A stretch of 64,000 bases of DNA from Comamonadaceae bacterium (lineage in GTDB: Bacteria; Pseudomonadota; Gammaproteobacteria; Burkholderiales; Burkholderiaceae_C). Of the stretch, positions 51,432 to 55,775 are shown piece by piece. Where the stretch lies: the NCBI GenBank assembly GCA_009996515.1, contig JAACZV010000009.1, forward strand, positions 62,001-126,000. The letters are read 5' to 3'. A program made the position numbers and the translations under genes. The notes under the pieces were generated by a model. The model saw nothing but the letters and a program-made list of their open reading frames with translations, had not been told where the DNA came from and did not search any database. Within the stretch, counting starts at the first letter, position 1; each line of letters starts with the position of its first letter.

Positions 51432-51848
51432 TCAGGCGGCCAGGCGCTGCTCCATGCCGCCCATGCGCCCGATGGGCTGGGTGTTGCGCAGCGCATCCAG
51501 CACCGGCCCCTGCCAGGGCAGCAGATAGACCAGCGTCGCCAGCGTCGCGCGCCGCCGCGATGACAGCAGCGGCCGGCCGTGATCGTCCAGCAGCAGCACG
51601 TTGGAGCGCACATTGAGCGGGTCGGCCTGCACGACGGTGGCCTCGGCCATCTCGACCCAGTCCCACTCCAGCCAGGCGCGGGCATCGGCATAGCAGCGCT
51701 CCCAGCGCGTGGAACCGCTCACCCGGTGCTCGGCTCCGCGCGGGCGGTTCACATGGGTCTGCGCATGCCTCACATCCTGCGCGGCGCCAGACAAGGCGGC
51801 AGCGGGCCAGCACAGACTGCCCTCGGGCAACTGGAACAGGGTTGACAT
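51432..51848 (-). CDS. Hypothetical protein divergent from the LuxR regulator
   Basis: This 138-residue soluble protein is not recognised. It has no signal peptide or membrane helix. It contains a Trp-rich segment (WERCYADARAWLEWDWVEMAE) and an Asp/Arg-rich end. ATG 51848 has a strong AGGAAGG Shine-Dalgarno sequence, supporting translation. It is divergent from the LuxR-type gene, with about 100 nt between starts, so it may share regulation. Confidence 0.65.
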   Translation of the reverse strand: MSTLFQLPEGSLCWPAAALSGAAQDVRHAQTHVNRPRGAEHRVSGSTRWERCYADARAWLEWDWVEMAEATVVQADPLNVRSNVLLLDDHGRPLLSSRRRATLATLVYLLPWQGPVLDALRNTQPIGRMGGMEQRLAA

Positions 51849-51912
51849 GCGATACCTTCCTGCGTGTGTTTCCAACGGGACCGCAGTCTCGGATCGGCGA
51901 GAGGGCCGAACA

Positions 51913-51932
51913 AGCTGGCAGACTTGGCAGGT
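51913..51932. promoter_or_regulatory. Weak lux-box-like site in front of the LuxR gene
   Basis: AGCTGGCAGACTTGGCAGGT shows the CT-N12-AG spacing of lux-type boxes, with about 6 of 10 positions symmetric. It lies just before ATG 51933 and 16 nt before ATG 51948 of the regulator gene. It might allow autoregulation. The match is weak. Confidence 0.35.
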
Positions 51933-51947
51933 ATGGGTAAGCCCGAA

Positions 51948-52661: not shown

Positions 52662-52677
52662 GTCTTTAGGCCCAGGA

Positions 52678-52697
52678 ACCTGGCAACCTTGCTAGGT
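52678..52697. promoter_or_regulatory. Lux-box-like dyad downstream of the LuxR gene
   Basis: ACCTGGCAACCTTGCTAGGT is a 20-bp dyad with 8 of 10 symmetric positions and the CT-N12-AG signature of lux/las-type boxes. It lies 17-36 nt after the luxR stop and 68 nt before the next start. It is a good candidate for activation of the downstream ORFs by the neighbouring regulator. No clear -10 element could be assigned. Confidence 0.6.
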
Positions 52698-52764
52698 TTC
52701 TAGGGGGGCGAAAAAAGGGACAGTTCGGTCAAGCGAATTTTTTCCCTTCCCACAGGAGCCCCTC

Positions 52765-52821
52765 ATGTACCTCATCGACCTGATCTACGAAGTCCTCGGC
52801 GTCCCCCGTTTCGGCGGCTGA
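52765..52821 (+). CDS. 18-codon ORF with strong ribosome binding site
   Basis: MYLIDLIYEVLGVPRFGG is encoded after CACAGGAGCCCCTC, an excellent AGGAG at 6-7 nt spacing, and ends in TGA. It may be a short peptide or leader. Alternatively it is the true 5' end of the next gene: the run of five C at 52803-52807 could, by a -1 shift or a one-base indel, join it to a reading frame without stops (FRRLTVNPDRLAEMY) that continues into the alpha-CTD-like ORF. Position between a lux-type dyad and that ORF makes either reading interesting. Confidence 0.5.
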   Translation: MYLIDLIYEVLGVPRFGG

Positions 52822-52847
52822 CCGTCAACCCAGACAGATTGGCCGAG

Positions 52848-53213
52848 ATGTACGCGGCTGCGGATTGCGAGGGTGACCAGCTCCAGAACACGAGCTCCGC
52901 ACCCCAGCTCCCTCCGACAACGTCGCTGCCCCCGGCCCTGATCCCGACTGCATTGCCCAACCGCACAGGCATCGTGTCCATTTCCGCTGAGACCTATGCC
53001 CGGCTGCTGAGCCTCGCCGACCAGGCACCGCTCGAGGCCCTGGCCTTGACGCCGCGCACGCTGGCGCGCGCCAAGACGCTGGGCTACAACCGGATCGGCC
53101 AGATCCGCGGCACGCCGACCAACCGGCTGCTGGCGGACCTGGGGGAAGACCGTGCGGACGAGTTGAAGCGTGCCCTCTACGACTTCGGCATGCGCCAGCA
53201 CGGCAGCGATTGA
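52848..53213 (+). CDS. Small protein with RNA polymerase alpha-CTD-like domain
   Basis: The protein has about 121 residues: a Pro/Thr-rich N-terminal half with no known fold and a C-terminal part (LEALALTPRTLARAKTLGY, then NRIGQI, LLADLGEDRADELKRALYDFGM). This part matches the alpha-CTD pattern of RpoA, including the helix-hairpin-helix LGExRAxELKxxL. Such a domain could bind DNA or activators. The start is uncertain: ATG 52848 and TTG 52839 lack a Shine-Dalgarno sequence, and the true start may be ATG 52765 through a frameshift. A strong terminator follows, supporting a real transcript. Confidence 0.6.
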   Translation: MYAAADCEGDQLQNTSSAPQLPPTTSLPPALIPTALPNRTGIVSISAETYARLLSLADQAPLEALALTPRTLARAKTLGYNRIGQIRGTPTNRLLADLGEDRADELKRALYDFGMRQHGSD

Positions 53214-53244
53214 TGGACTGATCTCGTCCATGAGTTTCCCGAAC

Positions 53245-53273
53245 ACAGGCCGCGTCAGCGGCCTGTCTTTCTT
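53245..53273 (+). terminator. Strong terminator after the alpha-CTD-like gene
   Basis: ACAGGCCGC, loop GTCA, GCGGCCTGT make a perfect 9-bp stem (53245-53266), followed by CTTTCTT. It lies 32 nt after the stop of the alpha-CTD-like gene and before the CAT-family gene, so the LuxR-peptide-alpha-CTD block ends here. Confidence 0.8.
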
Positions 53274-53301
53274 GGGCGCAGCTCATGCGAGCATGTCGCC
53301 C

Positions 53302-53949
53302 ATGCAAGACCGCGAGATTCCCCTTGATGCCTGGCCGCGCCGCGCCGCGCTCGAACACTTCCGCCACATGGCCCAGCCGGCATTCAGCGTCACCGCACCG
53401 GTGGACGTGACCGGCCTGCGCGAGCGCGCCGCCCGCCATGGGGCCACGCCCTGGCTGGCCTACCACCACGCCGCGCTGGAAGCCGCCAACACGATCGACG
53501 CCATGCGCCAGACCCTGGGCGCCGAGGGCTTGGTCGTGCGCGAGTTCGCGGTCATCCACGCCAGCACCACGGTGCTGCGCGACGACGGCAGCTTCGGCAT
53601 CGTCACGCTGCCGCGCGAGCCCTCGCTGGCCGAGTTCGCCGCGCGCGCCCGTCCGAACGTCGAACGCGTGCGCCGGGCCAGCGGCGACCTGTTCGCGGCC
53701 GACGAGCCCGGCGCGGTGCACGAGGAGACGCTGGTGCACATGACGACGCTGCCCTGGCTGGCCTTCACGGCCTTCACCCATGCCCGCGGCCAGGGCGACG
53801 ACCGGCCCAAGCTGGCTTTCGGCCGCTTCACCGAACAGGCCGGCCGGCTGCTGATGCCGGTGGCCGTGGACGTGCACCACGCACTCTGCGACGGCGTGCA
53901 TGTGGGCCGCTTTTTCGAACAGTTGCAGGCCCGGCTGGACGCCATCTAG
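53302..53949 (+). CDS. Chloramphenicol acetyltransferase-family protein
   Basis: This protein of about 215 residues has the CAT-family length and the active-site motif VDVHHALCDGVHVGRFFEQLQ, with catalytic His in HHxxxDG. The N-terminus IPLDAWPRRAALEHFRHM also matches the family. Many chromosomal CAT-like proteins do not confer resistance, so the substrate is unknown. ATG 53302 fits homology. ATG 53293 and 53230 are alternatives. Confidence 0.8.
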   Translation: MQDREIPLDAWPRRAALEHFRHMAQPAFSVTAPVDVTGLRERAARHGATPWLAYHHAALEAANTIDAMRQTLGAEGLVVREFAVIHASTTVLRDDGSFGIVTLPREPSLAEFAARARPNVERVRRASGDLFAADEPGAVHEETLVHMTTLPWLAFTAFTHARGQGDDRPKLAFGRFTEQAGRLLMPVAVDVHHALCDGVHVGRFFEQLQARLDAI

Positions 53950-54050: not shown

Positions 54051-55775
54051 ATGAGTCCACCGCGTCAACTGGTGCTGCTGTGCGACGGCACCAACAACAA
54101 CCTCAGCGGCCGCCATTCGGACACCCATGTGGTGCTGCTGGCCGAACTGCTGAGGCTCTTCCCCGACGACGGCCGCCTCGTCTACTACGACCCGGGCGTC
54201 GGCAACCCCGAGCAGCTGCCTGGCACGACCGTGATGGACAAGATCCAGCGCGCACTGGATCGCATCGACGGCCTGGCCTTCGGCCGCGGGCTGTACGACA
54301 ACGTCGCGGAAGGCTATCGCTTCCTGATGTCCAACTGGCAGCCGGGCGACCAGATCTACCTGTTTGGCTTCTCGCGCGGCGCCTTCACGGCGCGCTCCAT
54401 CGGCGGCCTGGTGAATGCCTTCGGCATCATCGACAGTCACCAGGACACGCTGGTCGCTAGCCTGGTGTCGACCTATTTCGCCAAGGCCTCGCCGGAGCGC
54501 AGCGACATCACCCAGCAGGCTGCCCGCCTGTTCGGCCAGGGCCTGACGCCCGAGGCCTGGCCCGCCGTGCATTTCGTCGGCGTCTGGGACACCGTGGCCA
54601 GCGTGGGCCTGCCGCCCTTCGGGCTGAAGATCACCGCCCGCCCCAACCTGGACGACAAGCATTTCCGGCATGTGCGCCAGGCCCTGGCGCTGGACGAGCA
54701 GCGCGCCCAGTTCCTGCCCCGTGCCTACGAGCAGGACGACGGTGCATTCCTGATGAAGAACGGCGAACCGGGCGACATCCAGCAGCGCTGGTTCCGCGGC
54801 TCGCACTGCGACGTGGGCGGCGGCAACGAGTACCCCTACAGCGAGCTGTCCCGGGCGCCCTTCGCCTGGCTGGTGGCCGAGGCCCTGCGGTGCGGCCTGC
54901 GGGTGCCGGTGCCGCCCGGTCACGCGCCCCTGCTGACGGAGCACGACGTGTTCCGCGTGATGCCCGAGCTCGATCCGCCCAAGCCGGCGCGCTTCGCGGC
55001 CCTCATCAACAGCCAGACCCATGCGACGCCGCTGTGGGCGTTGACCGGGCTGAAGGTGCGCGACACCGCGCGCGCTCTCGTGGATGGCCAGCCCAGCAAG
55101 CAGGTGAAGATGGCTGCGCATCCCAGCGTCGCCGACTGGAAGCATGCCTTCCCCGCGCGCACCGCCTGGCGCGAGCGCGGTGGCGATACGGCGTCCTGGC
55201 TCAAGCTGCTGCTGGGCCTGGTGATGGTGGCCGCGCTGATGGTGCTGGCCGGCTGGGCGCAGCTGGAGCCGCAAGGCCTGCTGCCGTCGCTGTCGCGGCT
55301 GGACGAGATCATGGCCGCCAACCAGGACTTCCAGGCCTGGCAGCTGAGTCTTCAGCCCATGGCCGATTGGACCGCGCATGCCGGCGTCTTCGCCCGGCCG
55401 CGCCTGGCCTTGCTGGTGGATGTCGGACTGATCGCCGCCTGGGCCTGGGTGCTGTCGCTGTGGACCTGCCGGGCCTTTGCGCGCCACGCGGGCCTGATCC
55501 AGGTGGGCACGACGCCACCCGCCTGGCTCAATTGCGCGGGCTGGGCCCTGCCCATCGCGGTCGGCGCCGACCTGCTGGAGGACTTGTTCTCCTGGCTGTC
55601 GCTGGCCGGCGCGCAGGCCGCGCCCGAGGCGGTCTGGCTCTGGCTGCCGCGCCTGCTGATGACGACGTCCAGCGCCGTCAAATGGGTGGCGCTGGCCGGT
55701 GTTGCGCTGTTGATCCTGAGCTCAACAACGCGCCGCCATCGTCAGCCGTCCAGGGTCACGATGACCGGTGCGTGA
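54051..55775 (+). CDS. DUF2235 (Tle1-like) alpha/beta-hydrolase with C-terminal membrane helices
   Basis: In this 574-residue protein, residues 5-300 form a DUF2235 hydrolase: LCDGTNNN at the start, the nucleophile elbow GFSRGAFTARSIGGL, VGVWDTVASVG and the late His in WFRGSHCDVGGG. About four hydrophobic helices follow from residue 380 (LGLVMVAALMVLAGWAQL and others). Such proteins include type VI secretion phospholipase effectors (Tle1). No T6SS or immunity gene is visible nearby, so this link is unproven. Its 3' end overlaps convergent xthA by 34 nt. Confidence 0.8.
   Translation: MSPPRQLVLLCDGTNNNLSGRHSDTHVVLLAELLRLFPDDGRLVYYDPGVGNPEQLPGTTVMDKIQRALDRIDGLAFGRGLYDNVAEGYRFLMSNWQPGDQIYLFGFSRGAFTARSIGGLVNAFGIIDSHQDTLVASLVSTYFAKASPERSDITQQAARLFGQGLTPEAWPAVHFVGVWDTVASVGLPPFGLKITARPNLDDKHFRHVRQALALDEQRAQFLPRAYEQDDGAFLMKNGEPGDIQQRWFRGSHCDVGGGNEYPYSELSRAPFAWLVAEALRCGLRVPVPPGHAPLLTEHDVFRVMPELDPPKPARFAALINSQTHATPLWALTGLKVRDTARALVDGQPSKQVKMAAHPSVADWKHAFPARTAWRERGGDTASWLKLLLGLVMVAALMVLAGWAQLEPQGLLPSLSRLDEIMAANQDFQAWQLSLQPMADWTAHAGVFARPRLALLVDVGLIAAWAWVLSLWTCRAFARHAGLIQVGTTPPAWLNCAGWALPIAVGADLLEDLFSWLSLAGAQAAPEAVWLWLPRLLMTTSSAVKWVALAGVALLILSSTTRRHRQPSRVTMTGA

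Follow-up and report, generated by a model that had tools for sequence, protein, structure and literature searches.

We propose that a small locus in the 64,000-nucleotide stretch of DNA analysed here, hereafter the window, is a regulatory circuit in which a LuxR-type protein would read a ribosomally made peptide encoded just behind its own gene, and we give this reading a probability of about 0.57. The LuxR family is known for reading other molecules, and the sequences suggest that here it may read a peptide. The peptide gene adjoins the receptor gene and is conserved together with it, both in the loci of the genus Roseateles and among a wider set of LuxR entries. The features of the locus are as follows.

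51432-51848, minus strand: RsaM-family (DUF4902) gene, divergent from luxR (PF16245, match to PDB 4o2h)
51912-51933, no strand: second, weaker dyad AAGCTGGCAGACTTGGCAGGTA, extending by one base into the luxR start codon
51933-52661, plus strand: luxR, 242 aa, without a LuxI-type partner (PF03472, PF00196)
52677-52698, no strand: lux-type 22-bp dyad AACCTGGCAACCTTGCTAGGTT, 66 bases 5' of the short ORF
52754-52758, plus strand: Shine-Dalgarno sequence AGGAG of the short ORF, seen in the sequence six bases 5' of its ATG
52765-52821, plus strand: 18-codon peptide gene encoding MYLIDLIYEVLGVPRFGG and ending with a stop codon, assigned to the leaderless form of the LuxR-adjacent peptides
52974-53213, plus strand: free-standing alpha-CTD-like gene, 79 aa from GTG 52974, with the stop codon at 53211-53213
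53245-53266, plus strand: intrinsic-terminator-like hairpin with a 9-pair stem (terminator scan; folding z -4.3)

A preliminary description of this DNA had presented luxR, the dyad, the 18-codon ORF, the small protein and the hairpin as one unit, and each of these elements was found in its place. The gene order is kept in Roseateles, where the unit reads rsaM (minus strand), luxR, 22-bp dyad, 18-codon ORF, alpha-CTD-like gene and terminator, and both the dyad and the length of the ORF are retained in all 17 fully read loci of the genus. The conserved unit is larger than had been described, as the divergent RsaM-family gene and a second dyad overlapping the start of luxR also belong to it. The RsaM-family gene matches PF16245 with an E-value of 3.4e-6 (27.4 bits against a cut-off of 25) and PDB entry 4o2h (BCAM1869) with an E-value of 3.4e-6. 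By tblastn, an RsaM-like match accompanies luxR-A at all 17 Roseateles loci, is present at all nine paralogue loci and is found at 54 of the 59 survey loci (L094-L152). The terminator scan of the region gave two such sites against 1.2 expected, which taken by itself is not a significant excess; a sigma-70 promoter scan of the same region returned 0 promoters. The interval that separates the peptide ORF from the alpha-CTD core contains, at 52872-52901, an element, GGTGACCAGCTCCAGAACACGAGCTCCGCA, which recurs in many Roseateles loci and contains an AGCTC/GAGCT inverted repeat (AGCCC/GGGCT in L029 and L032). Past the terminator-like hairpin we observed a chloramphenicol acetyltransferase family protein (53299-53949; PF00302, E 4e-22), and at 54051-55775 a protein with a Tle1-like phospholipase-type domain (PF09994, E 2e-70).

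The dyad was found in 17/17 Roseateles loci, with the consensus AACCTGGAAGACTTGCTAGGTT. Within the 4.58-Mb genome of the window, 52677-52698 is its only exact match; when up to three mismatches were allowed, the pattern occurred at two places only, this one and 51912-51933, and the reversed control pattern gave 0 matches in the same genome at the same tolerance. The targets recognisable at this tolerance are therefore luxR itself and the peptide/alpha-CTD unit. The best-scoring upstream site stands at the luxR-start position in all 17 Roseateles loci, a placement that makes autoregulation possible. An 18th Roseateles locus (L066 of G006), in which luxR is cut by the contig end, also carries the dyad and an 18-codon ORF, MKIIDLVYQILGLPKLGG; in this genome luxR-A is apparently split across two contigs (L036 and L066), possibly with an insertion element at the break.

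All 17 fully read Roseateles loci have an ORF that starts with ATG, is preceded by GGAG and is exactly 18 codons long. Residues G12, P14 and G17 are invariant over these loci, and I4, D5 and L11 differ in one or two of them. The pN/pS ratio is 0.70 in frame, lower than in the other frames (0.84 and 1.8), which weakly supports selection on the ORF. We did not find a C39 peptidase in the genome of the window, nor in the flanks examined at the 17 Roseateles loci; 10 of the 20 genomes of the genus have one somewhere. Given that the genome of the window lacks a detectable C39 peptidase and that we know of no export route for its leaderless peptide, the latter might act solely inside the cell.

Just 3' of luxR and behind a dyad, a short ORF is also present at paralogous LuxR genes and in other genera. 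We searched a profile made from eight LuxR proteins against 200 genomes of the bacterial family and detected the lineage, at an E-value of 1e-45 or lower, in 53 of them, which represent 35 of 141 genera. In 300 order-wide genomes it was present in three, two of which belong to the same family; the sole relative of the order sample outside the family, in G327, has no such short ORF. The set of 98 LuxR entries consisted of 70 of the 76 family matches, 17 luxR-A genes, nine paralogues and two others. The remaining six family matches are Roseateles genes already counted in the luxR-A, paralogue or other sets, and eight further Roseateles paralogues were left out. Three entries with fewer than 300 bases downstream were excluded, leaving 95. 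An ORF was accepted when it had an ATG start, a purine-rich Shine-Dalgarno sequence and the pattern P-x(1-4)-[GTRN]-[GWFCVNS] ending no more than two residues from the C-terminus; this rule was drafted after the peptides had been seen, and the shuffled sequences were judged by the identical rule. In such conditions, 75 of the 95 entries had a short ORF ending in a core that resembles P-x-x-G-x, against 4.6% of 9,500 dinucleotide-preserving shuffles; the corresponding values were 85/95 and 26.8% when the core could lie anywhere in the ORF.

Curation by eye, with five matches removed and L135 added, left 81 of the 95 entries with a peptide. Ten of the 14 entries that have no accepted peptide are extra copies in the LuxR clusters of G108, G138 and G238, and an eleventh, L150, encodes a double-glycine peptide that starts from GTG. 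Among 13 LuxR entries outside the 95, including L079 and L080 of G019 and the lower-scoring L086-L093, two pass the C-terminal rule and five pass with the core anywhere, with ORFs unlike the family; inspection by eye of four more LuxR genes of G019 gave no peptide ORF. A search of the plasmid collection with one leader-type LuxR gave no match, and an Rfam search of five loci gave three tRNA matches only. When a genome holds several copies, the core differs from one LuxR to the other: PRFGG and PYGGGN in the genome of the window (G000), PRNGG and PRQGW in G026, LPRVGGW and FPRVGF in G120.

In G108, G238 and G138 (L129, L131 and L137) four to five LuxR genes of the lineage stand together, with one recognised peptide precursor in each cluster, and one LuxR match each in G138 and G238 contains stop codons. 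At a second Roseateles luxR-peptide pair (L074, L075, L077, L078, L083, L084 and L085), we also observed a double hairpin, AAAGCGACACCTCCATCGCTTTCGTTCGGCGCCCCCCGAACG, conserved with small differences. It lies 3' of the peptide ORF, is accompanied by terminator-like sequence and resembles a small RNA with C-rich loops; Rfam gave no match to it in L074, L078 and L084.

Such a distribution bears on the idea that the short ORF acts as a leader peptide and, through its translation, controls expression of the downstream alpha-CTD-like gene. The ORF is indeed short, has a strong Shine-Dalgarno sequence and lies 5' of a gene, from which it is separated by a partly conserved element. However, LuxR-adjacent short ORFs are present in genera where we found no alpha-CTD-like gene, the ORF has no run of a single codon, and its invariant residues G12, P14 and G17 lie near its end, so that we consider this idea highly improbable. 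Since the peptide ORF accompanies LuxR in genera in which the alpha-CTD-like gene was not found (with the exception of one weak match), the peptide is the more widely conserved partner of the LuxR lineage.

The curated peptides have two forms. We called leader-type the loci with a precursor of 45 residues or more, and they represent 42 of the 81; the 39 others are shorter, 28 of them from the genus Roseateles, and the shortest is the 9-residue MICLPRVGW. Outside Roseateles most of the LuxR-adjacent peptides are double-glycine precursors. Exact tandem copies of the core were found in 12 of 53 survey precursors, for example five of GPNGGW or four of DPSPKGTW; in the precursor of L098 the tandem cores are imperfect. 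The box CTGTAAGAGTTGACAG, or a near variant, lies 3' of luxR in 36 of the 42 leader-type loci. A C39 peptidase match is located within 5 kb downstream in 36/42 leader-type loci versus 0/10 leaderless survey loci (an eleventh, with too little sequence, was omitted), giving a Fisher p of 5e-7 that ignores relatedness. An HlyD-like ORF is present in 33 survey loci, every one of them leader-type. Pfam recognised a C39-ABC exporter in L103, where it also recognised an HlyD adaptor, and in L106. A core specific to each regulator, cores in tandem, an exporter and a box 5' of the ORF are what is expected of a signal and its receptor.

A bacteriocin controlled by LuxR would, however, leave much of the same pattern, and for this reason we regard as the main rival the reading in which the peptides are effectors, small, secreted and bacteriocin-like in the case of the leader-type and intracellular microproteins in that of the leaderless ones, switched on by a LuxR solo that answers another ligand. 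The combination of a double-glycine leader with HlyD and a C39-ABC exporter is typical for bacteriocins. In addition, the best NCBIfam match of the exporter is the NHLP bacteriocin exporter, although at 484 bits it falls below the cut-off of 853; with four precursors, NCBIfam gave matches below cut-off or none. An ABC-2 permease ORF upstream of rsaM was found in 30 of the 59 survey loci (25 leader-type, two leaderless and three without a curated peptide), and in L103 an ABC ATPase adjoins it by Pfam. This transporter may serve as an immunity system or may simply happen to lie next to these genes; its presence upstream of many survey loci slightly weakens the case for the circuit and strengthens that for the bacteriocin. 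On the other hand, in about half of the loci, where gene calling was crude, no ABC-2 ORF was found. Moreover, the cores have only about 5-8 residues, some of them in tandem, with a fixed type of end and a distinct sequence for each LuxR copy, and MICLPRVGW is too small for a typical bacteriocin. Taken together, these features leave the effector reading tentative, as a serious but clearly less probable explanation than a peptide signal.

We then come to the receptor. The LuxR protein of the window matches the autoinducer-binding domain Autoind_bind (PF03472, E 8.3e-13) and the GerE domain (PF00196, E 1.9e-20), both over the cut-off. We aligned it with LasR, in which we take Y56, W60, D73 and W88 to be residues of the AHL pocket. 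T61, Y65 and Y93 stand at the positions of Y56, W60 and W88, and D78 corresponds to D73, so that Asp73 alone is kept of the four positions compared. The preliminary description had called this regulator a LuxR solo, and indeed a search with the LuxI-family Pfam model (PF00765) revealed no LuxI-type synthase in the genome of the window. The sole match to this model in the genome was rejected as a LuxI candidate, being an exosortase-associated acyltransferase (TIGR03694, 238 bits). This acyltransferase (L156, 496-1281, minus strand) exceeds the LuxI-family Pfam cut-off and could be mistaken for an AHL synthase. With altered pocket positions and an acyltransferase as the only LuxI-family match, an AHL is not expected to be the ligand of this LuxR.

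An ordinary AHL-sensing solo with unrelated small ORFs in its neighbourhood thus appears scarcely credible to us. The regulator does belong to the LuxR family, and divergent rsaM-luxR solo pairs are described in Pelomonas, Kinneretia and Albitalea in the consulted part of PMC10710839; but the changed pocket, a peptide ORF at a fixed position behind the dyad in 17/17 loci and a frequency of such ORFs far above that of the shuffles all argue against it. We also considered, and rejected as evidence, a coevolution between the LuxR pocket and the last residue of the peptide. The position of LasR W88 is Trp in 42 of 47 Trp-ending rows versus 2 of 32 other rows; on the tree there are two pocket changes and four peptide-end changes, and independent pairs give p = 1.

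The small protein encoded between the peptide and the hairpin had been likened to the alpha-CTD of RpoA. Its ORF has in-frame starts at TTG 52839, ATG 52848 and GTG 52974, giving 79 to 124 aa depending on the start, and the segment common to all aligned relatives begins at GTG 52974 or within two residues of it. The protein was found in 18 of 20 genomes of the genus Roseateles and in none of 40 other genomes compared. In the family sample it was found in 4 of 200 genomes, three of them Roseateles and the fourth a weak match with a stop codon, so that the gene is almost confined to Roseateles. We modelled 17 of the 18 sequences with AlphaFold2 (G006 omitted), with a mean pLDDT of 88.5, and Foldseek places RNA polymerase alpha subunits or alpha-CTDs at the top of the matches to the models, with an rmsd of 1.4 A for 3gfk_B and 1.5 A for 1z3e_B. 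The Foldseek probability is about 1 (1.00 for 3gfk_B) but the best E-value is 0.003, none being below 0.001, and from rank 20 onward other proteins, such as RAD51 complexes, are intermixed. A PDB profile search gave 13 RpoA entries among 15 matches, each marginal (E 0.02-1.3); its top match, 4fm3 (E 0.006), is not RpoA. Pfam gave no match for this protein. The small protein thus models as an RNA polymerase alpha-CTD fold, and the likeness drawn in the preliminary description is supported by both the AlphaFold2 model and Foldseek. As for the presumed DNA-contact set of the alpha-CTD (R265, N268, G296, K298, S299 and E302), our reading of the alignment is that the equivalents of R265, G296 and E302 seem to be kept and those of N268, K298 and S299 changed.

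The preliminary description had placed this protein at the centre of the locus, recruiting or redirecting RNA polymerase at LuxR-bound promoters, with the short ORF as a secondary element. The fold match, the presence of the gene in 18/20 genomes of the genus and its location on the same strand, ahead of the terminator-like hairpin, agree with such a role. LuxR-type activators do contact the alpha-CTD, as stated in part of PMC13043044; a free copy could, by analogy, block or bridge the contact between LuxR and polymerase. Nevertheless, the luxR-peptide pair exists in genera where, bar one weak match, the alpha-CTD-like gene was not found, the presumed DNA-contact residues are partly changed, and the protein has no alpha-NTD that would link it to polymerase. 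We therefore judge it unlikely that the alpha-CTD-like protein is the core of the system. If it does touch LuxR, it would be a natural mimic of a polymerase contact.

In the peptide-LuxR circuit that we favour, the LuxR protein would bind the dyad at 52677-52698 and switch on the short ORF, and the alpha-CTD-like gene would be switched on by read-through. The short ORF would encode the cognate signal of LuxR, a ribosomally made peptide, and the autoinducer-binding domain would read its C-terminal core, V-P-R-F-G-G in the window. RsaM would have a tuning role, and feedback on luxR and rsaM would come from the second dyad, which overlaps the luxR start. In the relatives the signal would be made as a double-glycine precursor, then trimmed and exported by the adjoining C39 exporter, and in Roseateles it would be produced leaderless. 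Finally, the alpha-CTD-like protein would be an output specific to the genus, which may compete with or replace the alpha-CTD of RNA polymerase at LuxR-bound promoters. The DNA sequence itself gives the core, so that any receptor can be tested directly with a synthetic version of its peptide. Numerous LuxR solos are orphans to which no ligand has been assigned; were the proposal true, this lineage would gain a predictable and synthesizable ligand, encoded next door.

In the open full-text papers searched, a scope that leaves aside bioRxiv and most subscription journals, we found no description of a luxR-peptide pairing. It is likewise undescribed in the consulted parts of the LuxR-solo surveys PMC10134790 and PMC4338825, the quorum-sensing review PMC13220807 and the RpoA paper PMC10566545.

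Several known systems share part of this anatomy. The predicted fold of the small protein is that of the RpoA alpha-CTD; unlike RpoA, the protein is free-standing, without an alpha-NTD, and its identity in the best alpha-CTD matches is 20-28%. ComC-type double-glycine pheromones are used with C39 exporters in Gram-positive bacteria, where the receptor is a histidine kinase. The related leader-type loci also combine a precursor leader with a peptidase-ABC exporter, but the regulator is here a one-component LuxR-type protein and the bacteria are Gram-negative. Receptors of the RRNPP and RopB-LCP kind are cytosolic and have a TPR domain, whereas Pfam recognised LuxR-type domains and no TPR in the receptor of the window. 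According to the part of PMC10518010 consulted, RopB-LCP of Firmicutes also has a very short leaderless peptide gene beside the gene of a cytosolic receptor; its receptor is of the Rgg kind and its LCPs have 8-9 aa. The arrangement of the window resembles type 6 of the RsaM review, a divergent rsaM-luxR solo pair noted in Pelomonas, Kinneretia, Albitalea, Xenophilus and Thauera, although in the main text of that review the words 'peptide' and 'ABC transporter' each occur 0 times (PMC10710839, part of the article). If our proposal is true, peptide signalling of the Gram-positive style would exist in Proteobacteria, through a receptor family usually regarded as sensing AHLs. A further likeness, in the ligand, is with the OryR/PipR group, whose LuxR-family regulators do not answer AHLs: PipR of Pseudomonas sp. 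GM79, a peptide-responsive LuxR-type protein, responds to the tripeptide Ser-His-Ser at relatively high concentration (PMC4981722, in part). In the same part of that paper, pipR lies beside peptide-transporter and peptidase genes and PipR answers plant material, whereas here the regulator is adjoined by a peptide gene of its own.
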